Below are positions 5,326 to 35,915 of a DNA stretch of 56,599 nucleotides, piece after piece; within the stretch, counting starts at the first letter, position 1; each line of letters opens with the position of its first letter. The position numbers and the translations under genes were made by a program. The notes beneath the pieces were generated by a model. That model searched no databases. It had not been told where the DNA came from and was given only the letters and a program-made list of their open reading frames with translations. Source of the stretch: Candidatus Polarisedimenticolia bacterium (GTDB lineage: Bacteria > Acidobacteriota > Polarisedimenticolia > Gp22-AA2); the NCBI GenBank assembly GCA_036001465.1, contig DASYUH010000044.1, positions 1 through 56,599 of the forward strand, in the 5' to 3' direction.

Positions 5326-5874
5326 TTGATAAGGGACCCTCTGATGACCCTTGGACGCTCCGTTCTGGCGATCGCCGTCGCGGCCGGCGCGCCCTCGGGA
5401 GGATGCACCGCGGCGCCGCCGGGGAATGCGGGACCAAGCGCGGCGCCGCAGCAGGCCGGCGGGGCGCCCGCGGAGCCTCGGCGGGACGCACGGCGCGCCG
5501 AAGTGCGGTTCCCGAAAGGGCGCGTGCTCAAGGCCGAGATCGCCGACACGCCGGAGCGCTGGGCGCGCGGCTACATGTTCCGCCGCGAGGTGGGGGAGAA
5601 CGACGCCATGGTGTTCGTTTTTCCCGAGCCGGGCTTTCACCCGTTCTGGATGAAGAACACGCTCGTCCCGCTCGACATCATCTGGATGGACGACAAGGGC
5701 GCGATCGTCCACATCGAAGCGGGCACACCGCCCTGCAAGGCGGATCCGTGTCCCAGCTACGGCCCGCTGCGCATGGTGTCGTCCGTTCTCGAGGTGCGAG
5801 CCGGGACGGCGGCCGCGGAAGCCCTTCGGACGGGGGATCGTCTGGCGATCACCGTTCCGCAATCCGGCGACTGA
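5326..5874 (+). CDS. Exported DUF192 family protein
   Basis: A short hydrophobic N-terminus (SVLAIAVAAGA) ends in PSGGC, so this may be a lipoprotein, although the residues before the cysteine are not a standard lipobox. An Ala/Pro-rich linker follows. The DUF192 domain covers about residues 55-180, with the conserved RRxxGEND-like stretch, HPFWMKNTLVPLDIIW and SVLEVRAG. The biochemical role of DUF192 is not established. TTG 5326 is chosen because GGAGGTGA lies just upstream (5317-5324); ATG 5344 is the alternative. Confidence 0.8.
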   Translation: MIRDPLMTLGRSVLAIAVAAGAPSGGCTAAPPGNAGPSAAPQQAGGAPAEPRRDARRAEVRFPKGRVLKAEIADTPERWARGYMFRREVGENDAMVFVFPEPGFHPFWMKNTLVPLDIIWMDDKGAIVHIEAGTPPCKADPCPSYGPLRMVSSVLEVRAGTAAAEALRTGDRLAITVPQSGD

Positions 5875-5937
5875 AAATCGTCGGTGCGTCAGGAGGCCAA
5901 CAGCGCGAATAAGCGGACCGTTTCGCCTTGACCCTCC

Positions 5938-5966
5938 GGCGGATTCGTCGTAAAGGACAGGATACG
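5938..5966 (+). promoter_or_regulatory. Promoter candidate for the lytic transglycosylase gene
   Basis: TTGACC (5938-5943) and TAAAGG (5961-5966) are separated by 17 bp in the gap before the gene. The -10 box is a weak match. The gene 24 nt downstream has a strong ribosome site. Confidence 0.35.
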
Positions 5967-5989
5967 ACTCGGGGTTTCAGGAGGTGACG

Positions 5990-6616
5990 ATGAAGTTTTT
6001 CGCGCAAACGCTCTTCGCGATCGCGTCCCTGGTTTTCGGGTTCTTCATGGGAGTGCGGTACCAGGTGCGCATCCACAGCTTGAATGAGGTCAGCGCCCTC
6101 GTCCAGGCGCAGAAGGGGAAGATCGACAGCCTGCGGGACCAGAATCAACGCCTGCAGACCGTCATGCTCCTGCGTGACTTCCTCGAGAACGAGCGCATCC
6201 GGCTGCCGCAGGAGACGGTGAACGACATTGCCGGCTCCATCCACCAGGCGTCCGTGCGGTACAGCCTGCCGCCGGAGATGATCCTGGCGGTCATCCGGAT
6301 CGAGAGCGCATTCAACATCAACGCCCTGTCGAACAAGGGGGCGGTCGGCCTGATGCAGATCCTCCCTTCGACCGCCCAGGAAATTGCCCACGATCTGCGC
6401 ATGGAATGGAGCGGCGAGGATCTCCTGCGCAATCCGCAGGCGAATATCGAAATGGGCGCCTATTACCTCACAAAGATGATCTCCCAGTTCAACGACCTGT
6501 CGGTCGCCCTGGCCGCCTACAACCACGGCCCCGGGCGCATCGCCGAGCTCAACGAGGCGAAAGCCGATCTGCCGATGGACTACGCCGAGAAGGTGCTCTC
6601 CCACTACACCCCCTGA
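5990..6616 (+). CDS. Membrane-anchored lytic transglycosylase (SLT domain)
   Basis: The 208-residue protein begins with one membrane helix (residues 2-22) and then a short coiled coil (LVQAQKGKIDSLRDQNQRLQ). From residue 90 it has a lysozyme-like SLT domain. The catalytic glutamate is E105 in IRIESAFN, followed by GAVGLMQILPSTA and AAYNHGPGRI, the substrate-groove motifs of Slt/MltC-type enzymes. It should cleave the glycan strands of peptidoglycan from the periplasmic side. ATG 5990 is placed 5 nt after a near-perfect AGGAGGTGA; GTG 5984 lies inside that site and is unlikely. Confidence 0.9.
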   Translation: MKFFAQTLFAIASLVFGFFMGVRYQVRIHSLNEVSALVQAQKGKIDSLRDQNQRLQTVMLLRDFLENERIRLPQETVNDIAGSIHQASVRYSLPPEMILAVIRIESAFNINALSNKGAVGLMQILPSTAQEIAHDLRMEWSGEDLLRNPQANIEMGAYYLTKMISQFNDLSVALAAYNHGPGRIAELNEAKADLPMDYAEKVLSHYTP

Positions 6617-6882
6617 GGCTCGCCCCTCCCGCGCTGCGGATCGGGCAGTTCTCAGTCACGGGTGGCGGGGCGGGGCGCGGTGCGGCTCATGGCTCGCCGC
6701 GTGTACCCTCAGCGACCTTCTCGTCCGGGCAACCGCGTCTCGAAATCGCCACACCGCGCCGCGCCCGCCACCTGAGCCTGACACGCCCCGTCCGCCGCCG
6801 TGAAGCGCCCCTCTTGGTGTGTCGTGGAGACACCCTCGCGTGCCGCTCGCGCGCTTCGGCCGCAGGCAGCAGATGAGAAGAG
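6617..6882. other. GC-rich intergenic stretch without a recognisable gene
   Basis: Open frames here are random, Arg/Pro-rich and without motifs. I see no tRNA, no terminator with a T-run and no conserved domain. The stretch leads into the hairpin at 6883-6975 and the nuo promoter. Confidence 0.5.
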
Positions 6883-6975
6883 TGACGCCGCGATCCGCCG
6901 GGGGAACGCCGGTGTTGGCTGGGAGGCCGGGGCGGGCGTCCGAAACAGGCGTTGTCTCGGCGGGTCGCGGCGTTG
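6883..6975. repeat. Long imperfect inverted repeat (28-bp arms) upstream of the nuo operon
   Basis: Bases 6883-6910 pair with 6948-6975 in one register. As RNA, 22 positions are Watson-Crick, 5 are G-U and 1 (6904/6954) is a mismatch. The core 6885-6900/6958-6973 has 15 Watson-Crick pairs and one G-U. The 37-nt loop is G-rich. The right arm runs into the -35 box of the nuo promoter (6973-6978). No T-run follows, so it does not look like a normal terminator. It could be an operator, a small mobile palindrome, or a structured RNA if transcription starts further upstream. Confidence 0.7.
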
Positions 6976-7002
6976 ACACTTTCCGGCCCGTGGTGCTACC
7001 TT
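6973..7002 (+). promoter_or_regulatory. Sigma70-type promoter of the nuo-atp operon
   Basis: TTGACA (6973-6978) is a perfect -35 box, followed after 18 bp by TACCTT (6997-7002). The leader to the nuoA start at 7064 would be about 55 nt. The -35 box overlaps the right arm of the long inverted repeat. Confidence 0.6.
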
Positions 7003-7063
7003 ACGCCCTCCGTAGCGCCCGCGGCCACGCAAGCGGGCGGTGTGTGTGCCGGGGAGGCGCCGC

Positions 7064-7417
7064 GTGGTCGAGTACGCTCCCATCCTGATCTTCCTCGCCG
7101 TGGCCACGGTCTTCCCGGTGGTCACCCTGGTGGTCGCGCGCCTGCTCCGGCCGGCCCGGTACAACCCGGTCAAGGCCGAGGCCTACGAGTGCGGCGTGCC
7201 TCCGAGCGGCGAGGCGCGGGCCCGCTATCCGGTCCGGTTCTACGTCATCGCCGTGCTGTTCGTGGTGTTCGACGTCGAGACGATATTCCTGTTCCCGTGG
7301 GCGGTGAAGTTCCGTGCCCTGGGGATGTTCGGGTTCCTGGAGATGCTCGTCTTCCTCGGCATCCTGATCGTCGGGTACGCCTATGTCTGGAAGAAAGGAG
7401 CCCTGGAGTGGGTCTGA
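7064..7417 (+). CDS. nuoA: NADH-quinone oxidoreductase subunit A
   Basis: This 117-residue complex I membrane subunit has three transmembrane helices. [16 protein letters not shown] forms the loop carrying the conserved cysteine at the quinone-site entrance, and [12 protein letters not shown] is the family signature in helix 2. GTG 7064 is chosen over GTG 7040 because GGGGAGG sits 6 nt upstream and the encoded protein then starts VEYAPI as usual. It is the first of eleven contiguous nuo genes. Confidence 0.95.
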
Positions 7418-7899
7418 TTGAAGGTGCCTTCGAGCACCCCAACATCATCACGACGACGGTGGACAAGCTCTTCAACTGGGCGCGCAAGTCTGCCCTGTGG
7501 CCGATGTCCTTCGGACTGGCCTGCTGCGCCATCGAGATGATGGCGACGGTGGCCTCGCGCTACGACATCGACCGGTTCGGGGCCGGCGTGTTTCGCGCCA
7601 CCCCGCGCCAGTCGGACGTGATGATTGTCGCCGGCACGGTCTGCGAGAAGATGGCCCCCGTCATCAAAAGGCTCTATGAGCAGATGCCGGATCCGAAGTG
7701 GGTCATCTCGATGGGCGCCTGCGCCACCTGCGGGGGGCCGTTCCCGACCTACAGCGTCGTGCAGGGGGTCGACCGAATCGTCCCGGTGGACGTGTACATC
7801 CCGGGCTGCCCGCCGCGCCCGGAAGCCCTCCTCTATGGCTTCCTCAAATTGCAGGACAAGATCGACAGGATGACTGTCGCGGGGCGGGCGACCGCCTAG
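7408..7899 (+). CDS. nuoB: NADH-quinone oxidoreductase subunit B
   Basis: This 163-residue peripheral-arm subunit binds the terminal 4Fe-4S cluster N2 that passes electrons to quinone. Ligand cysteines are visible in [16 protein letters not shown] and PGCPPRPEA. The GTG start overlaps nuoA by 10 nt and has AAAGGAG upstream (7395-7400). A gap of 93 nt separates it from nuoC, the longest break inside the nuo block. Confidence 0.95.
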
Positions 7900-7992
7900 A
7901 ACAGCTGGCCCTTACGAACACAAGAGCGGCGCGGCCGGCGGGCCGCGGGCGCTTGTGAAAAAAAGCGCGAGCGACGGGGGGCTCGGGCGGAC

Positions 7993-8868
7993 ATGAGCGA
8001 CGAGAAGGACGACAAGCCGCAGCCACCTGCCACCCCTGGGGACGAGCCCGCACAGGCGCCCCAGCCGGCGCCGCCGGCGACCGCCCCCGCATCGCCCGAG
8101 GCAGCGCCGTCCGCGCCGGCACCTGCCGCGCCCGCGCCGGCATCTGCCGCTCCCGCACCGGCACCTGCCGCGCCCGCACCGGCTCCTGCCGCCCCCGCGC
8201 CGCCCGTCCCCGCGGCGGCGGCTCCCGCGAAGGCGACTCCCGCAGCCCCGCCGCCACCGGCGCCGCCCAAGCCGAACCCCCTCCTGGCCGCGGTGCCGTC
8301 GGTTGCGCTCGACCGGCTGAAGGAGCGATTCGCCGATGAGATCATCGAGACGGTGTTCTACGCGGGCGAGGTGACGGTGAAGCTGAAGCAGGAGCGCGCC
8401 GAGACGATCTGGCGCTTCCTGCGCGACGAACCCGACCTGCGCTTCGACTACCTGAGCAATCTGACGGCGGTGCACTGGCCGGAGAGGCCGAAGCCGTTCG
8501 AGGTCGTCTATCATCTGTTCTCGCTGACCAGGCGCCACAGGCTCAATTTGAAAGTCGACGTCGGAGAAGGGGAGCAGCCGCCGACCGCCTGCCGCGTCTG
8601 GCCGACGGCCAACTGGCACGAGCGCGAGGTCTTCGACCTGTTCGGCATCCGTTTCCATGGCCACCCGGACATGACCCGCATCCTGATGACCGACGAGTGG
8701 GTGGGGCACCCCCTGCGCAAGGACTACCCTCTCGAGGGGAAGCCCGAAGATCACATGCAGTTCCGGCAGGTGACCACGGCGGAGCACGTCTACACCTACG
8801 ACAAGTCGCCCATCAAGGGCTTCGGCTGGAAGAAGGAAGTCGAAAAGACCGGGGAGGGCCGGGGCTGA
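7993..8868 (+). CDS. nuoC: NADH-quinone oxidoreductase subunit C with Pro/Ala-rich N-terminal extension
   Basis: From about residue 95 onward this is the 30-kDa complex I subunit: [42 protein letters not shown], and the signature [23 protein letters not shown]. Before it lie about 90 residues made almost only of Ala and Pro, encoded partly by 21-bp repeats. This extension is not part of the fold and should be disordered. The C-terminus ends in a short charged tail. The subunit is not fused to NuoD. Confidence 0.93.
8119..8202 (+). repeat. Four 21-bp tandem repeats inside nuoC
   Basis: Units at 8119-8139, 8140-8160, 8161-8181 and 8182-8202 differ at only a few bases, and each encodes seven Ala/Pro residues. 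The period is a multiple of three, so copy number could change without breaking the frame. Confidence 0.8.
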
Positions 8869-9965
8869 TGTTTCGCACCGAGGAGATGGACATCAACATG
8901 GGGCCGCAGCACCCTTCGACCCACGGGGTGCTCCGCCTCAAGCTGACCCTCGACGGCGAAGAGGTGGCCGACATGCGCCCGGTGATCGGCTACCTGCACC
9001 GCGGGGTCGAGAAGCTCTGCGAGCACCGCACCTACCCGATGATCGAGCCTCTGACCGATCGGCTCGATTACGTGGCGGCGATCTCCGAGAACCTGGGGTA
9101 CTGCGGGGCGGTGGAGAAGCTGATGGGGCTGACCGTCCCGCCGCGCGCCCAGTACATCCGGGTGATCCTCGCCGAGCTGCAGCGGATCGCCTCGCATCTC
9201 CTGTGGCTCGGGACGCACGCCCTCGACCTCGGGGCGATGACCGTCTTCTTCTACACCTTCCGCGAGCGGGAGATGATCCTCGACCTGTTCGAGGCATTCT
9301 GCGGCGCGCGCCTGACCTACAACTCGATGCGCATCGGCGGGCTCTACGAGGACCTGCCGGCGGGCTGGACCGGCCGGGTGCGCCAGTTCATCGACATCTT
9401 CCCGTCCCGCGAGAAGGAGTACGAGGACCTCCTGACGGTCAACCGGATCTGGCTCGGCCGCACCCGCGGCGTCGGCATCCTCAAGCCCGAGGACGCCGTG
9501 GCCCTGGGGGCCAGCGGGCCGACGCTGCGCGGCTCCGGGGTGGACTACGACGTCCGCCGGGCGCAGCCGTACTCCTCCTACGACCAGTTCGAGTTCGACG
9601 TGCCGGTCGGGAGGAACGGCGACACCTACGACCGCTACATCGTGCGCATGGAGGAGATGCGGCAGTCCTGCCGCATCATCCGGCAGGCCCTGGACAAGCT
9701 GCCCGAAGGGGAAGTGCGCGCCAAGGTGCCGAAGTACATCAAGCCGCCGACCGGCGAGGTGTACCACGTGGTGGAGAGCCCGCGTGGCGAGCAGGGGTTC
9801 TACATCGTCCACAAGAGCGGCGAGATGCCGTACCGCATGCGCTTCCGGGCCCCGTCGTTCGTCAATCTGCAGGCGCTGCCGCTCATGTGCAAGGGACTGC
9901 TCATCGCCGACATCGTCGCGGTCATCGGCTCGATCGACATCGTCCTCGGCGACGTGGACCGGTAG
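8868..9965 (+). CDS. nuoD: NADH-quinone oxidoreductase subunit D
   Basis: This 365-residue 49-kDa subunit forms the quinone cavity with NuoB. Conserved elements are [15 protein letters not shown] at the N-terminus, YLHRGVEK, and the C-terminal [18 protein letters not shown] and DIVLGDVDR. The cysteine ligands of an NiFe hydrogenase are missing, so this is complex I and not an energy-converting hydrogenase. The start overlaps the nuoC stop by one base (TGATG). nuoH follows directly; nuoE, nuoF and nuoG, which usually stand here, are absent. Confidence 0.96.
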
Positions 9966-27318: not shown

Positions 27319-28026
27319 ATGAAGCTCATCGCCCTGGGTGACATCCACGGAAACCTGCCCGCCCTCGAGGTCGTCCTGCGCGAGTGCCGGGCCGAGGGGT
27401 ACGACCTGATCGTGCACACGGGAGACCTGGTCGGGTTCGCCCCGTTCCCGAACGAGACGGTCGAGCTGGTGAGAGTCGAGAAGATCGAGGGCGTGCGCGG
27501 CAACCTCGACGAGAGCGTGTCGGCCGGGGCGGAGGACTTCGGCGGCCACGGCGAAGACGCACGCACCCGCAGGCTGGAGAATCTCGCCTATGCCTGGACG
27601 CTGGAGCGCACCGAACGGCGGGCGCGCGCCTTCCTGGCCGACCTGCCGTTCGAGCAGCGGCACGAGCCGGCGGGCCGGCGGACCGTGGTGGTGCACGCCA
27701 ACCCGATCGATCTGTCGGCCTGCATGTGGGAGGACCGGGACCCGGACTATTTCCGCGAGATGGGGGAGGCGGCCGACGCCGACGTCCTCGTCTTCGGCCA
27801 CACGCACCGGCCGTACCATCGCATCGTGGACGGCCGCCACTTCGTGAACGCGGGCAGCGTCGGCTACCCGAAGGCGGACGACCCGCGGACCGGCTACGTG
27901 GTGATCAACGTCAACGGCAGCGTCGAGGTGCAGTACCGCCGGTTCCCTTACGACGTCGAGCGGCTGATCCGCGCGATGCGCGATCGCCGCTTTCCGCACG
28001 ACGCGGAGCACCTGTTCAAGGGGTAG
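27319..28026 (+). CDS. Calcineurin-like metallophosphoesterase (YfcE/MJ0936 type)
   Basis: This 235-residue cytoplasmic protein has all the dimetal motifs: GDIHGN at the N-terminus, HTGDLVGF, RGNLDE, VVHANP and GHTHRPY, followed by the closing NAGSVGYPK. The family includes phosphodiesterases and Ser/Thr phosphatases; the substrate is not clear. Its last 11 bases overlap the end of the convergent DUF151 gene. A phosphatase next to a Ser/Thr kinase block is suggestive but unproven. Confidence 0.85.
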   Translation: MKLIALGDIHGNLPALEVVLRECRAEGYDLIVHTGDLVGFAPFPNETVELVRVEKIEGVRGNLDESVSAGAEDFGGHGEDARTRRLENLAYAWTLERTERRARAFLADLPFEQRHEPAGRRTVVVHANPIDLSACMWEDRDPDYFREMGEAADADVLVFGHTHRPYHRIVDGRHFVNAGSVGYPKADDPRTGYVVINVNGSVEVQYRRFPYDVERLIRAMRDRRFPHDAEHLFKG

Positions 28027-28834
28027 CGACCGTCCGCGTCTGTCCGTCCCGCCAGATCGTGAAGGACTTGATCTCCCGCCCGCTGCTGCCGCGGAATTCC
28101 GCCAGGTGGGGGACCGGCTGCCCGTCGAGCGCCTCGAGGATGTCGCCGCGCTGCAGCCCGGCGCGCTCGGCGACGCCCCCCTTGAGGACGCTGGCGACGA
28201 GGACGCCCCGGACCGCCTCGGCCCCCAGGGACGCCGCCAGATCGCGGTCCAGCTCCTGCACGGTCAGCCCGAGACGCTTTTCGGCGTGAATCGTCCGTTC
28301 CGGATCGGAGCCGTCGAGAGGCTTCAGGAGAGCGGCCGCCGAGAACATCGGCGCGTTCAGGCGCACGGCGAGCGCGATGGCGTCGGAGGGGCGCGCGTCG
28401 ATCGGATGGACCTTGCCCCCCGCCCGCAGCGAGATCTCCGCGAAGTAGACGTCCGCCTTCAGCCCCGTCACCGTGATCTTTTCGATGACCGCCCCCAGGA
28501 CGCCCAGGATGGACGCCAGCAGATCGTGCGTCATCGGGCGCGCCGTCTCCGTCTTCGTCTTTCCGAGGTAGATGGCGATTCCCTGGTCCCGGCCCACCGC
28601 GATCGGCACGGCCCGCTGCTCGCTCTCGTCCGCCAGGATCAGCAGCACCTGATCGGGCCCGGTCTGCCGGATCCCGGCGACATGCACGGGGACCGGCCCG
28701 TCGGGACGTTCGGGGACGGCCGGCGACTCCTGGGCGCTCAGCTCCGGGCTCGCCAGGAGCGCCAAGACGGCGAGCATAGCGGCTCTCGGAGTGTGGAAAC
28801 GACCACCATTATCAAACGTCAAGCCAGCCCCCAT
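28016..28834 (-). CDS. Exported bifunctional-nuclease domain (DUF151) protein with C-terminal PDZ
   Basis: An N-terminal hydrophobic segment (AAMLAVLALLASPELSAQ) points to export. DUF151 spans about residues 50-185, with VPIAVGRDQGIAIYLG, RPMTHDLLASIL and IDARPSDAIALAVRLNAP. A PDZ-like domain ends the protein (GVLVASVLKGGVAERAGLQ, GDILEALDGQPVPH). Known DUF151 proteins are cytoplasmic nucleases or regulators, so signal peptide plus PDZ is unusual. The start is uncertain: ATG 28834 is given, but ATG 28777 would also leave a signal peptide. Confidence 0.8.
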   Translation of the reverse strand: MGAGLTFDNGGRFHTPRAAMLAVLALLASPELSAQESPAVPERPDGPVPVHVAGIRQTGPDQVLLILADESEQRAVPIAVGRDQGIAIYLGKTKTETARPMTHDLLASILGVLGAVIEKITVTGLKADVYFAEISLRAGGKVHPIDARPSDAIALAVRLNAPMFSAAALLKPLDGSDPERTIHAEKRLGLTVQELDRDLAASLGAEAVRGVLVASVLKGGVAERAGLQRGDILEALDGQPVPHLAEFRGSSGREIKSFTIWRDGQTRTVATP

Positions 28835-28971: not shown

Positions 28972-29000
28972 TTGACAGGCCCCCGGTGCGACACTAAAAT
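28972..29000 (+). promoter_or_regulatory. Near-consensus sigma70-type promoter of the PEGA kinase cluster
   Basis: TTGACA (28972-28977), a 17-bp spacer and TAAAAT (28995-29000) make the best promoter match in the window. The leader to ATG 29092 is about 85 nt and contains GC-rich complementary stretches near 29046-29082 that could fold before the weak ribosome site. Confidence 0.75.
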
Positions 29001-29091: not shown

Positions 29092-31164
29092 ATGAATCTG
29101 AAGAAGCTGGGCCGCTTCGAAATCATCCGTGAAATCGGCAGGGGGGCGATGGGCCGGGTCTTCCTGGCCGACGATCCCAAGATCGACCGCAAGGTCGCGA
29201 TCAAGACGATCGTCCTGCCGCCCGGGACGTCCGACGAAGAGGCGCGCGAGACGAGCCACCGCTTCCTGCGCGAGGCGCAGGCGGCGGGCAAGCTCCTGCA
29301 CCCGAACATCGTCACGATCTTCGACGTGGGGGAGGAGGACGGCGTCTCGTTCATCGCCATGGAGTTCATCGAAGGCGAGACGCTCGAGAAGCACACGCGG
29401 CCCGAGACGCTTCTGCCCCTGAGGCGCGTCCAGGAGCTGATCGCCCAGGCGGCCGCGGCCCTCGATCACGCGCATCAGAATCACATCATTCACCGGGACA
29501 TCAAGCCGGCCAACCTGATGGTCCTGAAGGGCGGCGTCCTGAAAGTCACCGACTTCGGGCTGGCCAAGAGCCCGTCCGCGAACCTGACGCAGGCCGGCGT
29601 GCTTCTCGGCACGCCGAGCTACATGTCGCCGGAGCAGATCCAGGGGAACGAGCTGGACGGCCGCAGCGATCTGTTTTCCCTCGGCGTGGTGCTGTACGAG
29701 CTCCTGACCGGCACGCGGCCGTTCGAGGGGGACTCGATCTCGACGATCATCTACCGCGTCCTCTACGAGGATCCCCGACCGCCCGCGGCGCACAATCCGG
29801 CGCTCCCCCCCGAGGTGAACGGCATCCTGGAGAAGGCGCTGTCGAAGGAGCCGGAGAGACGCTACGCCACCGGGGGGGACATGGTGGCCGACCTGGTGAG
29901 GGCCTTCTCGGTGCTGCCGCAGGACACGCTGTCGCGCCCCTTCCCGGTGACGGCCCGGCAGGCGCCGGCCACCCGTGCGATGGCGCAGCCGGGGACCACG
30001 GCCAGGGGAAGCCGCAACGGGCGGGACCGCGGCGGCCGTCGCGCCGGCCGGCCAAGCGATGCGGCCGGGCGCGAGGACGCGGCCGTCCGGCCGGAACCGG
30101 GTTTCGGTGCGCGGCATTCCCTGAAGATTGCGGCGGTGGTCGTGATCGCCGGCTTCGGTCTGGTTCTCTTCCCGCGCCTGGTGAACCGCCACGAGCAGGC
30201 GCCCGGGCGGGTCGCCGAAGCCGGCGGGACGTCCGGCGGCGGCAACCTCGCGGGCGGGACGACCACGCTGGCGGCGGCCGCGGGGGGCGGGCCGGGAGCG
30301 GCGGGAATGGTCGCGATCGACGTGTCGACCATCCCGCACGGCGGGGCCATCTCCCTCGACGCGACCCCTTTGGCCGAGCCCCGGGTCGTCCTGTCCCTGT
30401 CCGATCCGAAGCCGCACAACATCGTGGCGGAGGCCGGCTGCCGGCGCGCCGTGGCGGAGATGACCGCCTCCGACCTGGCGTCCTTCAAGGGGAACCTGGT
30501 GCTCGAGCTGAAGCCGCGCCTCGAGGAGGTGATGGTGGCGTCCGATCCTCCGGGGGCGCGCATCCGGCTCAACGATCATGACACCGGCAAGATGACGCCC
30601 GCCGTCCTGGCGATCGATGGCTGCGAGAGCCGCTCCCTGACCCTGCAGCGCGAGGGCTACCGCCCCTGGACCGCCTCCTACGACGCCGACGCCGACTTCG
30701 ACGCCATGGTCGAGTCGCTCAAGAAAGTGAAGCTCGACCCCGTGCCGTCCGGCACGTTCATGGTCAAGAAGCCGGCCGACTACGACGTCGAGATCTACGC
30801 CGGCGACCGGCGGATCGGCAAGGCGGGGGAGACCCTGGCGCTCCAGGAAGGAAAGCACGCGCTCACCTTCAGGAACGACAAGCTGTTCGTCAAGGAGAGC
30901 GCGCAGGTGACGATCGAGGGGGGCAGGGCCTCGACGCCCCTCATCACCTTCCCGGCCGTCGGCAGCCTGACCGTGCAGGCGCAGCCGAGCAACTGCAAGG
31001 TCTTCGTGGACGGCGTCTACGTCGACGTCACCCCGGTCCTCAGCCTGCCGATCGCCTCCGGCGGGCACCGCGTCAAGGTCGTCTTCGTGCCCAACGGCGC
31101 CGAGCAGGAGGTCAACGTGGCCGTGTCGGGCGGGAAGGACGCGCTCGTGACGGTGAAGTTTTGA
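29092..31164 (+). CDS. Ser/Thr protein kinase with membrane helix and PEGA repeats
   Basis: Residues 8-275 are a Hanks-type kinase: GRGAMGRVF glycine loop, K38 in VAIK, HRDIKPAN with D136, DFG at 154-156 and SPEQIQG. A flexible Arg/Gly-rich linker leads to one membrane helix (about 343-362), so the C-terminus is outside the cytoplasm. That part has several PEGA-type repeats (SDPPGARIRLNDHDTGKMTP, then QPSNCKVFVDGVYVDVTP). PEGA domains are thought to bind surface polymers or proteins. ATG 29092 is chosen because the kinase fold begins within ten residues. The stop overlaps the next TTG start. Confidence 0.92.
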   Translation: MNLKKLGRFEIIREIGRGAMGRVFLADDPKIDRKVAIKTIVLPPGTSDEEARETSHRFLREAQAAGKLLHPNIVTIFDVGEEDGVSFIAMEFIEGETLEKHTRPETLLPLRRVQELIAQAAAALDHAHQNHIIHRDIKPANLMVLKGGVLKVTDFGLAKSPSANLTQAGVLLGTPSYMSPEQIQGNELDGRSDLFSLGVVLYELLTGTRPFEGDSISTIIYRVLYEDPRPPAAHNPALPPEVNGILEKALSKEPERRYATGGDMVADLVRAFSVLPQDTLSRPFPVTARQAPATRAMAQPGTTARGSRNGRDRGGRRAGRPSDAAGREDAAVRPEPGFGARHSLKIAAVVVIAGFGLVLFPRLVNRHEQAPGRVAEAGGTSGGGNLAGGTTTLAAAAGGGPGAAGMVAIDVSTIPHGGAISLDATPLAEPRVVLSLSDPKPHNIVAEAGCRRAVAEMTASDLASFKGNLVLELKPRLEEVMVASDPPGARIRLNDHDTGKMTPAVLAIDGCESRSLTLQREGYRPWTASYDADADFDAMVESLKKVKLDPVPSGTFMVKKPADYDVEIYAGDRRIGKAGETLALQEGKHALTFRNDKLFVKESAQVTIEGGRASTPLITFPAVGSLTVQAQPSNCKVFVDGVYVDVTPVLSLPIASGGHRVKVVFVPNGAEQEVNVAVSGGKDALVTVKF

Positions 31165-32867
31165 GCCGCGGCCCGCTCGTCCCGCAGGCGTCCGTCCTCG
31201 TCCTCGCGGTGTTGCTCGCGGCGTTCGCGACCCTGACGGCCGCGGCCCCGCCGGCTGCCCCCGCGCCCGCCGCGACTCCGCCGGCCGCTCCCCCGGACGA
31301 CGATGACCGTCCGCTCGACGCGCGCACCTACGCCAGGGGGATCGAGGCCCTCAGGCAGGGGCGGCGCGAGGAGGCGGTCCAGACGCTGAAGAAGGTCTTC
31401 CAGGACTTCCCCGACAGCCCGCACGCCCCGCAGGCGCTGCTCAAGGTGGCGGACCTGATCTACCCGGCGGCCGCCTGGACGCAGATCGGATCGGCCTCGC
31501 CCCAGGCGGTCAAGGAGGCGGGCGACCTCCTGGCGACGCTGGCGCAGAAGTACCGCTCCTCCCGCGAGGCGCCCCGCGCCCTGATCAAGCTCGGCTACAT
31601 CCTGCTGGAGCCGGCCAACCCGAAGGCCGATCTGGACGAGGCGTGCGCCCGGTTCGCCTCCGCCGCGCAGATCTATCCCGACAGCGACGCGGCCGATGAC
31701 GCCTATTTCGGATCGGGGATGTGCGAGACGATGCGCGCGCACCCGGCGCTGGCGGCCGACTTCTTCTCGCGCCTCATGGACGAGAGCCCGGCCAGCCCCC
31801 TGGCCGCCGAGGCGCTCTACCGGCTCGGCCTGGCGCTGTCGCTGCTCGACGACCCCGCCGAGGCGGCGCTCGTGCTCGAGCGCGTCCGCACGCGCTACCC
31901 CGAGTCGCGCTTCGCGCCCCGCGCCCTGGAGCGCATCACCCTCATCCACCGCCTGCGGCTGCAGCCGGCGTTTCTCCGGGCGCAGGCCGCGGCGAAGACC
32001 TCCGCCGCCGCGAAGGCCCAGCGCGTCTCGGACGGGCCGGCGGCGGCGCCGCCCGAGCCGGACCTCTACAGGCTCGACGAGACCTACGGAGCCCCGGCCC
32101 CCGGCCGCGGGACGACCGCCAAGGCGGAGGAGACGTTCCGCGGCGCGTCCGACATCGACATCGACGCCCAGGGCCTGGCGGTCGTCGCGTCCCCCAGGTC
32201 GCCGGGGGTGTTCCGGCTGGATCCGAAGGGGAAGGTCGTCGAGCGGATCGCCAATCCCCTCCCGGGGTACGTGGGAGTCGGGGAAGGGCTCGCCGTCTAC
32301 ATCTCGGGGTCCAACCAGATCGCGCTGAACTCCAAGAACTGGGGCGGAGCGGATCTCAAGGGTCCGGACGGCCGTCCGCCGCGCGAATTCGGCCCGGTGG
32401 CCGCCGACGCGTCGGGGCGCGTCTATCTGCTCGACCCGCGCGAGAACGCCGTCCTGGCCTTCGATCGCTCGCGACGCCTGGTCGCGACGCTCCGGCCCGA
32501 CGTGAAGGACGGCCGGTTCGTGGACATCGCCCGCAGCGAGAACGGCGTGGTGTACGCGCTCGAGGGTCGCCTGAAGATCGCCGTGGAGCTGAACCAGGGG
32601 AAGGCGACCCGCAAGATCAACCTGGGCGGGCTGGGACTGACGGAGCCGATCGCCTTCGCCGCCGACGGCCTGGGGGACCTGTTCGTCCTGGACGGCCGGT
32701 CCGGCTGGGTCTACGTCGCCTCGCCGTCGGGCGAGCGGCTCGCCATCATCCGCCCGTCCAAGGAGGCGGCCGCGCGGCTCGGCGAGCCGTCCGCCGTGGC
32801 GGTGGACGCGATCGGCCGCGTCTACATCTCCGGACGCAAGGGCGCCACCATCCTGAGGTTCCGATGA
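31161..32867 (+). CDS. Exported TPR plus NHL-like beta-propeller protein
   Basis: A signal sequence (VLVLAVLLAAFATLTAAA) and a Pro/Ala linker precede tetratricopeptide-like repeats (about residues 50-265, e.g. GIEALRQGRREEAVQTLKKV and PLAAEALYRLGLALSLLDD). From about 330 to the end come blade-like repeats (GLAVVASPRSPGVFRLDPKG, then GRVYLLDPRENAVLAFDRS, GDLFVLDGRSGWVYVASPSG, AIGRVYISGRKGATILRF) that look like a six-bladed NHL propeller. The TTG start overlaps the kinase stop (TTGA). It is probably a periplasmic scaffold or sensor working with the kinase; that role is inference. Confidence 0.8.
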   Translation: MSRGPLVPQASVLVLAVLLAAFATLTAAAPPAAPAPAATPPAAPPDDDDRPLDARTYARGIEALRQGRREEAVQTLKKVFQDFPDSPHAPQALLKVADLIYPAAAWTQIGSASPQAVKEAGDLLATLAQKYRSSREAPRALIKLGYILLEPANPKADLDEACARFASAAQIYPDSDAADDAYFGSGMCETMRAHPALAADFFSRLMDESPASPLAAEALYRLGLALSLLDDPAEAALVLERVRTRYPESRFAPRALERITLIHRLRLQPAFLRAQAAAKTSAAAKAQRVSDGPAAAPPEPDLYRLDETYGAPAPGRGTTAKAEETFRGASDIDIDAQGLAVVASPRSPGVFRLDPKGKVVERIANPLPGYVGVGEGLAVYISGSNQIALNSKNWGGADLKGPDGRPPREFGPVAADASGRVYLLDPRENAVLAFDRSRRLVATLRPDVKDGRFVDIARSENGVVYALEGRLKIAVELNQGKATRKINLGGLGLTEPIAFAADGLGDLFVLDGRSGWVYVASPSGERLAIIRPSKEAAARLGEPSAVAVDAIGRVYISGRKGATILRFR

Positions 32868-35122
32868 GAGGCCCGGCGCGGATCCGCCGTCCCGGCGCGG
32901 CCCGGCTCGCCGCGGCGCTCGGCCTGGCGCTCCTGACGCCGCCCCTCCTGGCATGGACGGCCCGGCCGCTCCTGGCGCAGGAGGAGGAAGACCTGACCGC
33001 CGCCCTGAAGTCGATGCGCGCCGCATTCAACCGGGCGCGGGAGCGGATCGAAAACCTCGACTTCACCGGCGCGGCGCGCGAGCTCTCGACCATCATCGAG
33101 CCGCGCAAGGCCGCGAAGGCCGCCGACCTGAGCGTCGAGGAGATGAACCTCCTGTGCGCCGCCTACGACATGCGGGCGCGCGCCCTGTTCAACCTGGGAA
33201 ACGTCAAGTCGGCGGAGGGGGACTTCGCGGCGCTCCTGAAGCTCAATCCCGGCTACGCCATCGACCGCCAGACCCTGTCTCCGAAGGTCGTCGATCTCTT
33301 CGACCGGGTGCGGGGGAAGATCGCCGGCCTCCTGATCCTGCATCTCGATCCCCCCAGGGCCCGGCTCCTGGTCGACGGCGATCCGGTCGAGCGGCAGGGG
33401 GTCGGAACGATCGCCGTCCTGTCGGGAAACCACATGCTGCGCGCCGAGGCCGACGGCTACGACCCGTTCGAGGAGATGATCGCGGTGGTCGCCGGCGCCG
33501 AGACCCGCAAGACGATCACCCTGCGCCCGAACCGGCGCACCCTCCAGTTCGTCACCGTGCCGCCCGGAGTGAGCGTGTCGGTCGACGGCGGCCCCGCCGT
33601 CCTGTCCGCGGGCCCGGCGACGCCCGAGTCGGAGGCGCTGGCGCAGCAGGGGGGCTTCGATCCCAAGAACGCCTCGGCCCCGCTGCTCATCCCGATGGTG
33701 ACCGCCGGCGATCACAAGGTGACCTTCGAGAAGAGCTGCTACCAGTCCCGCGCCCTCGCCATCAAGGTGAGCCTCGACCTCGAGCAGAACGCCCCCATGA
33801 AGTTCACGCCGGTGGTCCTGCAGGACGCCAAGAGCGAGCTGCGCCTGACCTCGACCCCCTCCGGCGCGGACGTGTTCGTGGACGGGGAGAAGAAGGGGAC
33901 CACGCCCCTCGTGCTCCCCGGACAGTGCGGCGGGGAGCGCGACCTGGCGGTGATCAAGCCGGACGTCGGCTCCTGGTCCGAGCGCATCCGCCTGTCCGCC
34001 GGCGAGGTGAACACGCTCGACGTGAAGCTGCGCCCGACCCTGGCCTACGTCGGCACCTTCCGGCTCGACGAGTGGGGCCGCGCCGTCTGGAGCGACGAGG
34101 ACAAGCCGCTTCTGGACGAGCTGGCGAAGGGGCTCAAGACGCTCAACGTCGTGCGCACTCCCGCGACCCTGCAGGCGCTGCGCGACTCGATCATCAAGTG
34201 GATGATCACCGAGCCGGAAGAAGTGCGGGCCGGCACGCTCCTGCCGCCGGCCATCCTCGAGGAGGCCGCCTCGAGCGCCAGGGCCGACCTCGTGCTCGCC
34301 GGCCTGACGCTGGGAGGAGACAACGAAAAATCGTGGACGCTGGCCCTTTATTCGGTCCAGCACCCGGCGCCGGATGTCGTGCGCCTGCGGCTCGACCAGC
34401 CCGAGGGGGTGCGCGAGTTCGTGAAGCGGCTGGACACCGCCCCGCCCAGCCGGGGGCCGTGGTGGGGGATGGGCCTGGTGGACAGCCTCCTCGACGGGCA
34501 GGGCGATCCCGACGGCCCGCTCGTGGTCCGCGTCCTGCCGGGCGGCCCCGCGTCCAAGGCCGGCCTCCGCGAGGGGGACCGGATCCATGCCGTGGGCAAT
34601 CGCAAGACGCCGGGGGTGCGCGACGTGAACCAGGCGATCGCCGCCGAGATGTCCCGCCCGGGAGGGCTGAAGCCGACCCTCGTCCTGGCGGTGGAGGACG
34701 CGTCGGGGCCGCGCACCGTCCGCCTGACCCCGGACGAGGGGCCGATCGTCACACCGCTCAGCGATCCGTCCCTCCTGTACAACCGGGCCCTGGCCGAGTT
34801 CCGCCTGCGCTCGAGGGCCGCCACGGAGGACGGCGATCGCGGCGCGTCCCTTCTGAACCTGGGGGTCGCCTACATGCACTTCCGGGTGTACGACAAGGCC
34901 GAATCGGAGGGGTTCGCCCGGGCCGGCCTGCCGACCGTCACCGGCGTGTCCCAGGGGACCGTTCTGTACTATCGCGGCCTGTGCGCCCTGCGTCGCGGCA
35001 ACCCCGCCGCCGCCCGGAGCGCGTTCGAGCAGGCCCGGGCGCAGGCCGGCAGCACCCTGGACAGCGGGGACGGCCCGTCGGCCGCGTCCGCGGCGTCCAG
35101 GATGCTCAAGGCGATCGATTGA
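32864..35122 (+). CDS. Exported TPR-PEGA-PDZ multidomain protein
   Basis: This 752-residue protein has a signal peptide (residues 1-38). Helical repeats follow (45-140, with ALFNLGNVKSAEGDFAALLK), then three PEGA-like domains (about 150-385: DPPRARLLVDGDPV, VPPGVSVSVDGG, TPSGADVFVDGEKKGTTPL). Next is a mixed domain (390-525), a PDZ domain (about 530-620: VVRVLPGGPASKAGLREGDR) and C-terminal TPRs (LLNLGVAYMHFRVYDKAE). The ATG overlaps the previous stop (ATGA). Shared PEGA repeats with the kinase suggest a common ligand or direct contact. Confidence 0.82.
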   Translation: MRGPARIRRPGAARLAAALGLALLTPPLLAWTARPLLAQEEEDLTAALKSMRAAFNRARERIENLDFTGAARELSTIIEPRKAAKAADLSVEEMNLLCAAYDMRARALFNLGNVKSAEGDFAALLKLNPGYAIDRQTLSPKVVDLFDRVRGKIAGLLILHLDPPRARLLVDGDPVERQGVGTIAVLSGNHMLRAEADGYDPFEEMIAVVAGAETRKTITLRPNRRTLQFVTVPPGVSVSVDGGPAVLSAGPATPESEALAQQGGFDPKNASAPLLIPMVTAGDHKVTFEKSCYQSRALAIKVSLDLEQNAPMKFTPVVLQDAKSELRLTSTPSGADVFVDGEKKGTTPLVLPGQCGGERDLAVIKPDVGSWSERIRLSAGEVNTLDVKLRPTLAYVGTFRLDEWGRAVWSDEDKPLLDELAKGLKTLNVVRTPATLQALRDSIIKWMITEPEEVRAGTLLPPAILEEAASSARADLVLAGLTLGGDNEKSWTLALYSVQHPAPDVVRLRLDQPEGVREFVKRLDTAPPSRGPWWGMGLVDSLLDGQGDPDGPLVVRVLPGGPASKAGLREGDRIHAVGNRKTPGVRDVNQAIAAEMSRPGGLKPTLVLAVEDASGPRTVRLTPDEGPIVTPLSDPSLLYNRALAEFRLRSRAATEDGDRGASLLNLGVAYMHFRVYDKAESEGFARAGLPTVTGVSQGTVLYYRGLCALRRGNPAAARSAFEQARAQAGSTLDSGDGPSAASAASRMLKAID

Positions 35123-35128
35123 CACCGA

Positions 35129-35157
35129 TTGACACCGGCCCGACCGGACACTACATT
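35129..35157 (+). promoter_or_regulatory. Promoter placed for leaderless transcription of the DUF4388 gene
   Basis: TTGACA (35129-35134), a 17-bp spacer and TACATT (35152-35157) form a strong promoter. A second TTGACA lies 10 bp upstream (35119-35124). The ATG at 35166 is only 8 nt after the -10 box, so transcription would start at or next to the start codon. Confidence 0.65.
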
Positions 35158-35165
35158 TCCGAATT

Positions 35166-35915
35166 ATGAGTGGGTCCGCCCAGGCATCGCACTCTCCCGT
35201 CCCGCCGCCACGCGCCTCCCGCGACGGGGAGATCCGCTCGACGACGATCCCCAAGCTGTTCCACGAGATGTCCGCCACGCGCGCCACGGGCCTGCTCACG
35301 GTGACCGACGGACCCATAAGGAAGTCGGTCCAGTTCAAGAACGGCGCCGTGCTGTTCGCCTCCTCGAACCAGCGCGACGACCGCCTGAACCAGTTCCTGC
35401 TGTCGGCCGGCATCGTCGGGTTGACCGACCTGATGAAGGCCCTCGAGGTCATGGTGGCGACCAAGGACCGGCTGGGGGAGGTCCTGGTGCGCTACAAGAT
35501 GCTGACCCCGGATCAGGTCGAGAAATACGTGCGCACGCAGGTCTGCGAGATCGTCTACTCGACCTTCCAGTGGACCCGCGGGCGCTTCACCTTCGAGGAG
35601 AAACCGCCGGCCTCGGAGAACATCACCATCGGCCTCACGGGCGACGCGATCGTGATCGAGGGGGTCAAGCGGATCGCCTCGTGGGCGCGGGCCTACGAGG
35701 AGATCGGCGGCCTGAACTCCGAATACCGCACCACCCGCGAGATGCCGGCGATCGTCAAGGACCTCCCGCTGTCGGCGGGGGAGAAGGAGCTCGTCAAGCA
35801 GTGCGACGTGCCGACGTCGCTGGAAGAGATGTGCGAGTCCTCCAAGCTCCCCGACCTCGACGTCTGCCGCTCGGTCTGGGCCCTCCTGCTCGTGGGCGCG
35901 TTGATGAAGGCGTAG
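35166..35915 (+). CDS. DUF4388 (PATAN-type) protein
   Basis: This is a 249-residue cytoplasmic protein. An N-terminal DUF4388 region (about 28-150) has STTIPKLFHEMSATRATGLL, VQFKNGAVLFASSNQ and TFQWTRGRFTFEE; such domains occur in signalling proteins, often next to receiver domains, in delta-proteobacteria and Acidobacteria. The C-terminal third is helical. There is no ribosome site before ATG 35166, consistent with a leaderless message. It probably belongs functionally with the upstream kinase cluster. Confidence 0.85.
   Translation: MSGSAQASHSPVPPPRASRDGEIRSTTIPKLFHEMSATRATGLLTVTDGPIRKSVQFKNGAVLFASSNQRDDRLNQFLLSAGIVGLTDLMKALEVMVATKDRLGEVLVRYKMLTPDQVEKYVRTQVCEIVYSTFQWTRGRFTFEEKPPASENITIGLTGDAIVIEGVKRIASWARAYEEIGGLNSEYRTTREMPAIVKDLPLSAGEKELVKQCDVPTSLEEMCESSKLPDLDVCRSVWALLLVGALMKA

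Follow-up and report, generated by a model that had tools for sequence, protein, structure and literature searches.

A PEGA-domain Ser/Thr kinase is encoded with two exported proteins in a conserved gene unit of Polarisedimenticolia and other Acidobacteriota

In a 56,599-nt stretch of DNA (the window) from the 100% complete genome GCA_036001465.1, a member of the class Polarisedimenticolia (hereafter the class), a Hanks-type Ser/Thr kinase with PEGA modules is encoded directly ahead of two exported proteins, G2 and G3. Comparison across Acidobacteriota supports the view that these three genes and their products, together the triad, are a real conserved unit. The triad is somewhat more probably than otherwise an envelope-sensing receptor-kinase module, whose sensor would be supplied partly in trans by G2 and G3. 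In many soils Acidobacteria are abundant, and their genomes encode numerous Ser/Thr kinases of unassigned role. The triad is a conserved receptor-kinase locus in which gene order names the partners, so that sensor, contact surface and output become directly testable.

All features of the locus lie on the plus strand unless stated. The kinase gene (29092..31164, 690 aa, by ORF list and Pfam) overlaps G2 (31161..32867) by TTGA, with G2 starting at TTG, and G2 overlaps G3 (32864..35122) by ATGA. The unusual TTG start of G2 is backed by the same junction, with four-base overlaps, in the congeners L066-L068. Hydropathy indicates hydrophobic export signals at the N-termini of both G2 and G3. A gene for a DUF4388 protein follows (35166..35915). 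The four reading frames, their coordinates, the overlaps and the promoter given in a preliminary description of this DNA are all present as described. Named loci of the same family come from the metagenome-assembled genomes 'Acidobacteria bacterium gp22 AA2/AA3/AA4' and from groundwater relatives. Divergent from and upstream of the kinase, on the minus strand (28016-28834), is a gene in which a DUF151/BFN bifunctional-nuclease domain is fused to an HtrA-type PDZ domain behind an apparent export signal. It is kept in all same-family loci fetched, and an exported BFN domain is odd.

The kinase operon is preceded by TTGACA-17-TAAAAT (28972..29000), with hexamers and spacing found in seven of seven same-family genomes including the source, while three genomes of the sister family have TTGACT-17-TAGAAT upstream of the kinase. 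We take this promoter to be real on the grounds of its conservation. The DUF4388 gene has a separate promoter, TTGACA-17-TACATT (35129..35157), which ends 8 nt before the ATG, suggesting a leaderless-type transcript. A similar promoter is found at equal distance in all five family members examined, with 1-3 base changes in L067, L068 and L069. Since the DUF4388 gene has its own promoter, the four do not make up a single simple operon; the operon consists of three genes, the kinase, G2 and G3. The four-gene unit first proposed thus stands for kinase-G2-G3, which is conserved, and not for DUF4388, a lineage-specific neighbour outside the core that is confined to the taxonomic order of the source.

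The kinase is a single-pass transmembrane protein with a PEGA ectodomain. Its catalytic domain (29116..29868, residues 9-259; Pfam Pkinase 4e-52) has intact VAIK, HRD and DFG motifs and is closest to family NF033483, which it matches with 323.8 bits, under the NCBI cut-off of 450. A single transmembrane helix (30115..30183, approximately residues 342-364) coincides with the hydropathy maximum of 2.39 at residue 346. Beyond it, the AlphaFold2 model (mean pLDDT 95.5) predicts four tandem PEGA/prealbumin-like modules (30304..31161), as against the two reported by Pfam (PEGA 9.5e-16). The PF08308 match scores 57.9 bits against a curated cut-off of 20.8, and PEGA is also found in 44 of 46 relatives. 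No PASTA repeats were found by Pfam in the ectodomain of the kinase or its relatives, only PEGA. Among approximately 15 kinase loci in the source genome, that of the triad is the sole PEGA kinase. Apart from the triad, a single PEGA protein was found in this genome (L001:1402-2460; G000:C114); it is exported and continues from PEGA into collagen-like GPQGPKGDKGD repeats. One relative of the kinase (L097:7116-9119) is an apparent pseudokinase, with HGD and GFG motifs and the VAIK lysine gone; its ectodomain, G2 and G3 are retained.

G2 combines a TPR region with a propeller. The TPR region (31308..32000; Pfam TPR_6 1.6e-15) is of the BamD/YbgF-CpoB type, matching PDB entries 3qky, 6g5s and 2xev and NCBIfam TIGR02795 (YbgF/CpoB) at 5.7e-23, with 81.8 bits, under the cut-off of 90.1. 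The NHL-type beta-propeller (32136..32864) is seen weakly by Pfam as SGL/NHL and by our profile A7 against 1rwi (E 3.8e-30), the sensor domain of Mycobacterium tuberculosis PknD. G3 has the order TPR, PEGA array, alpha/beta, PDZ, TPR, according to Pfam (PEGA 9.7e-18, PDZ and TPR) and AlphaFold2 (mean pLDDT 91.0). Its array of three PEGA-like modules (33323..34036, residues 154-391) scores 64.3 bits with PF08308, against the same curated cut-off of 20.8, and PEGA recurs in 51 of 52 relatives. The PDZ domain (34406..34753) is of the HtrA type by Pfam, profile and fold matches, and Foldseek searches with the whole G3 model return mainly TIE-protein hits and HtrA PDZ hits. At L079:6888-10601, a single open frame of 1237 aa spans both G2 and G3; this may be either a gene fusion or an assembly error.

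PEGA repeats in both the kinase and an exported partner had been noted from the outset, and the two prove homologous in detail (hhalign 99.3%, E 2e-20). Each array carries a pair of cysteines. In the kinase these are Cys450 in the second hairpin of module 1 (30439..30441) and Cys511 in the first hairpin of module 2 (30622..30624), both invariant in the class. In G3, alignment and AlphaFold2 strands place Cys292 (33737..33739) in the second hairpin of its module and Cys355 (33926..33928) in the first hairpin of the next. The pairs thus occupy the equivalent two hairpins of adjacent modules, an equivalence judged from hairpin positions in the predicted strands and not from the spacing, which is 61 residues in the kinase and 63 in G3. 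Among 94 G3 proteins, 76 have both cysteines, 18 have neither and none has a single one, a tally over sequences related by descent, which are not independent events. Because the cysteines co-occur as a disulphide predicts, the G3 pair suggests such a bond. Both kinase cysteines are present in 31 of 31 class members; outside the class 8 kinases have both and 2 only the first, and the others either have neither or do not align at these positions. In most families outside the class the kinase pair is absent.

Conservation of the triad was assessed in 36 loci fetched from the class and 60 from elsewhere in Acidobacteriota, the latter picked for having G3. Kinase, G2 and G3 are contiguous and in this order at 29 class loci. 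In the other seven, one kinase is cut by a contig end, three loci start at a contig end and two end before G3; contig ends thus account for all exceptions other than L098, which has no upstream kinase on that strand. Outside the class the contiguous order is found at 30 of the 60 loci, and the remainder includes two with a truncated kinase and two with a kinase whose G2 falls below threshold. In all, the order is kept in 32 of 87 Acidobacteriota families sampled. The preliminary description would have been contradicted by an unconserved gene order or by unrelated distributions of the exported proteins, and these counts clearly point the other way. Junctions are tight, with a four-base overlap at 34 of 97 and a gap or overlap of at most 30 bases at 72 of 97. 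Relatives of G3 occur in 39 of 41 class genomes at E <= 0.001, some through the PDZ domain only. Across the phylum 393 of 396 genomes match G3, most of them weakly, which we take as PDZ or TPR matches; full-length G3 occurs in numerous families but is missing from others. No triad was found on a plasmid. A scan of named genomes with profile A4, drawing on just two peptide patterns and hence uninformative on other phyla, gave seven loci, all in Acidobacteria.

Correlations between the distance matrices of the kinase ectodomain, of G2 and of G3 are 0.65-0.70 overall and 0.75-0.84 within the class, from which we conclude that the three are inherited together. A special co-evolution of ectodomain and G3 beyond that of the catalytic domain was considered as well; with clean domain boundaries it held inside the class only. 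Because this excess correlation failed outside the class, only common inheritance is claimed.

The surroundings of the triad vary. In the class, genes for ATP synthase F0 and aroB, named by reading the sequences and not by family search, often lie upstream. Downstream, families other than those of the source's order have genes for a SpoIIE phosphatase, receivers and histidine kinases. At L081:14478-16559, downstream of the triad, an MglA-like small GTPase domain, recognized by sequence motif, is fused to GAF and histidine kinase domains; related genes are found in other loci of families f8-f10. Outside the class, a PP2C gene lies upstream in eight kinase-bearing loci and FHA genes adjoin several. 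Neither PP2C nor FHA genes were found at the locus in the source's window, and the source genome has one clear PP2C elsewhere.

The exported pair also occurs apart from the kinase. G2-G3 without a kinase was seen at the eight loci examined of family f32, where a HEAT-repeat protein of approximately 890 aa precedes the pair, and at two of three in f54. Some role of G2-G3 therefore does not need this kinase, and the pair is not an obligate accessory of it. In L171, L188 and L190 (L190:7328-11492) a PP2C gene immediately precedes G2-G3, in the place that the kinase takes elsewhere. In each of the genomes G041, G131 and G170 a single kinase-type locus coexists with a single PP2C-associated one; the kinase-G2-G3 copy of G041 is at L164, and in G170 the PP2C is approximately 3 kb upstream. 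Given these variable partners, G2-G3 is the combination that persists most, usually but not always together with the kinase.

On the receptor-kinase reading, the triad would most probably operate as follows. The kinase would cross the inner membrane once, with its four PEGA-like modules outside, and G2 and G3 would form a pair presumably located in the periplasm. The pair may read an envelope cue, possibly a protein or polymer bound on propeller, TPR or PDZ surfaces. The signal would probably pass from G3 to the kinase through contact of the homologous and probably disulphide-stapled PEGA arrays, and such contact would alter kinase pairing and autophosphorylation. Where their genes adjoin the triad, FHA proteins may read the resulting phosphorylation and PP2C may erase it, and other lineages would use other outputs. 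In favour of this reading are the conserved order and tight junctions, the homologous PEGA arrays with cysteines at equivalent hairpins, the common inheritance, the PP2C and FHA neighbours, the loci in which PP2C replaces the kinase, the likeness of the G2 propeller to the PknD sensor and the precedent of RtkS and PpkA. Against it weigh the loci with G2-G3 but no kinase, the lack of the kinase cysteine pair in most families beyond the class, the apparent pseudokinase of L097 and the tie of the 9k1u_B fold match with unrelated domains. Moreover, genes inherited together in an operon are no proof that their products touch. A shared ligand, as first proposed, is one of several readings of the shared PEGA modules, direct PEGA-PEGA contact being as likely. 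Acidobacteria are diderm bacteria, so the external parts of the triad are most simply periplasmic; nothing points to the outer surface, where they had been placed initially.

In a broader version of this proposal, G2-G3 would be the interchangeable envelope sensor of an ancestral kind of acidobacterial signalling, working with the kinase in most lineages, with PP2C in paralogous loci and with other cytoplasmic partners elsewhere, the signal passing through contact of disulphide-stapled PEGA arrays. We put this forward tentatively, as possible but falling short of an even chance.

It is rather unlikely, though worth weighing, that G2-G3 instead serves the structure or assembly of the envelope, as a TPR/PDZ scaffold complex comparable to BamD or CpoB, and that the kinase is a co-transcribed passenger which acts on some other target or itself obeys cytoplasmic cues. 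The kinase-less loci of f32 and part of f54 agree with this, as do the nearest relatives of the TPR (BamD/YbgF-CpoB) and PDZ (HtrA) domains and, in L187, a G3 that is fused with a von Willebrand A domain. Against it speak the kinase ectodomain homologous to G3 with cysteines at equivalent places and the kinase-G2-G3 order across 32 families; in L171, L188 and L190, moreover, it is PP2C, another phospho-signalling gene, that replaces the kinase. The L187 protein (5825-9094) is a G3-like PEGA-PDZ protein in tandem with more G3 copies.

The preliminary description saw a surface-contact system, and a reading in which it controls exopolysaccharide through the kinase and the DUF4388 protein finds its evidence within the source's taxonomic order. 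There, in families f1 and f2, the triad is followed in the same gene order by DUF4388 (missing at L074), a BBP2 barrel and Wza-like and Wzc-like genes. The DUF4388 protein (Pfam 2.7e-23) carries at residues 73-125 an MshEN-like motif, a candidate for binding c-di-GMP, which recurs in eight of eight relatives at E <= 0.001 (best 3.1e-9), although the source's own protein scores 32.5 bits with NF053729 (MshEN), under the NCBI cut-off of 38. From this motif it is a fair guess that a c-di-GMP input lies near the polysaccharide locus, separate from the kinase. The same neighbourhood was not seen in the other class or phylum families examined, the DUF4388 gene is driven by its own promoter, and no feature indicates an outer-surface location, so we regard kinase control of exopolysaccharide from the cell surface as improbable.

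A role in the threonine-phosphorylation pathway of type VI secretion (PpkA, PppA and Fha with a periplasmic activator) would share the logic of kinase, PP2C, FHA and exported partner, and there is the likeness of a single PEGA module to one RtkS-PpkA chain; yet VipB/TssC is found in only 8 of 41 class genomes, the triad being in most, and none was found in the complete source genome, which makes this link very improbable and led us to reject it. A phage-defence kinase of the PD-T4-6 type or similar is the least credible reading, and was likewise rejected: the PADLOC PD-T4-6 models match at 1.4e-95 what is a generic kinase region (residues 6-359), G2, G3 and DUF4388 have no matches, and in the class the triad is steadily found next to housekeeping genes, which does not resemble a defence island.

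The triad is best called a variant of transmembrane Ser/Thr kinase signalling, and it fails a testable defining feature of each of PknD, the PASTA kinases and PpkA-RtkS. In the open literature searched we found neither a described PEGA kinase system nor an experimental role for PEGA modules in kinases. YbgF/CpoB and BamD resemble the TPR part of G2, which differs from them in being fused to a propeller and in falling under the family cut-offs. A precedent comes from Serratia marcescens, where RtkS binds the type VI secretion kinase PpkA on its periplasmic domain, which it stabilises (PMC6082577). That system also combines PP2C and FHA with a kinase that has a separate periplasmic partner (PMC6082577). 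In fold searches a single PEGA module is similar to one chain of the crystal structure of RtkS-PpkA (9k1u_B, Z 7.3), a match tied with unrelated prealbumin-like domains; the similarity is at the fold level only, the partners differ and the source genome has no type VI secretion system. PknD likewise links an NHL propeller (1rwi) to a Hanks kinase. However, the propeller of PknD is part of the kinase chain, whereas here it is encoded in a separate reading frame, on the TPR-fused exported protein G2, and the triad kinase itself carries PEGA modules. The PASTA kinases (PknB/PrkC/Stk1) are also single-pass Hanks kinases with tandem external beta modules, are nearest in catalytic domain (NF033483), and have PP2C and FHA partners; beyond the class, genes for such partners adjoin the triad in many relatives. 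Unlike them, the triad kinase has PEGA in place of PASTA and two co-encoded exported partners. As such, the triad would stand as the counterpart of PASTA kinase signalling and would give PEGA modules a function.
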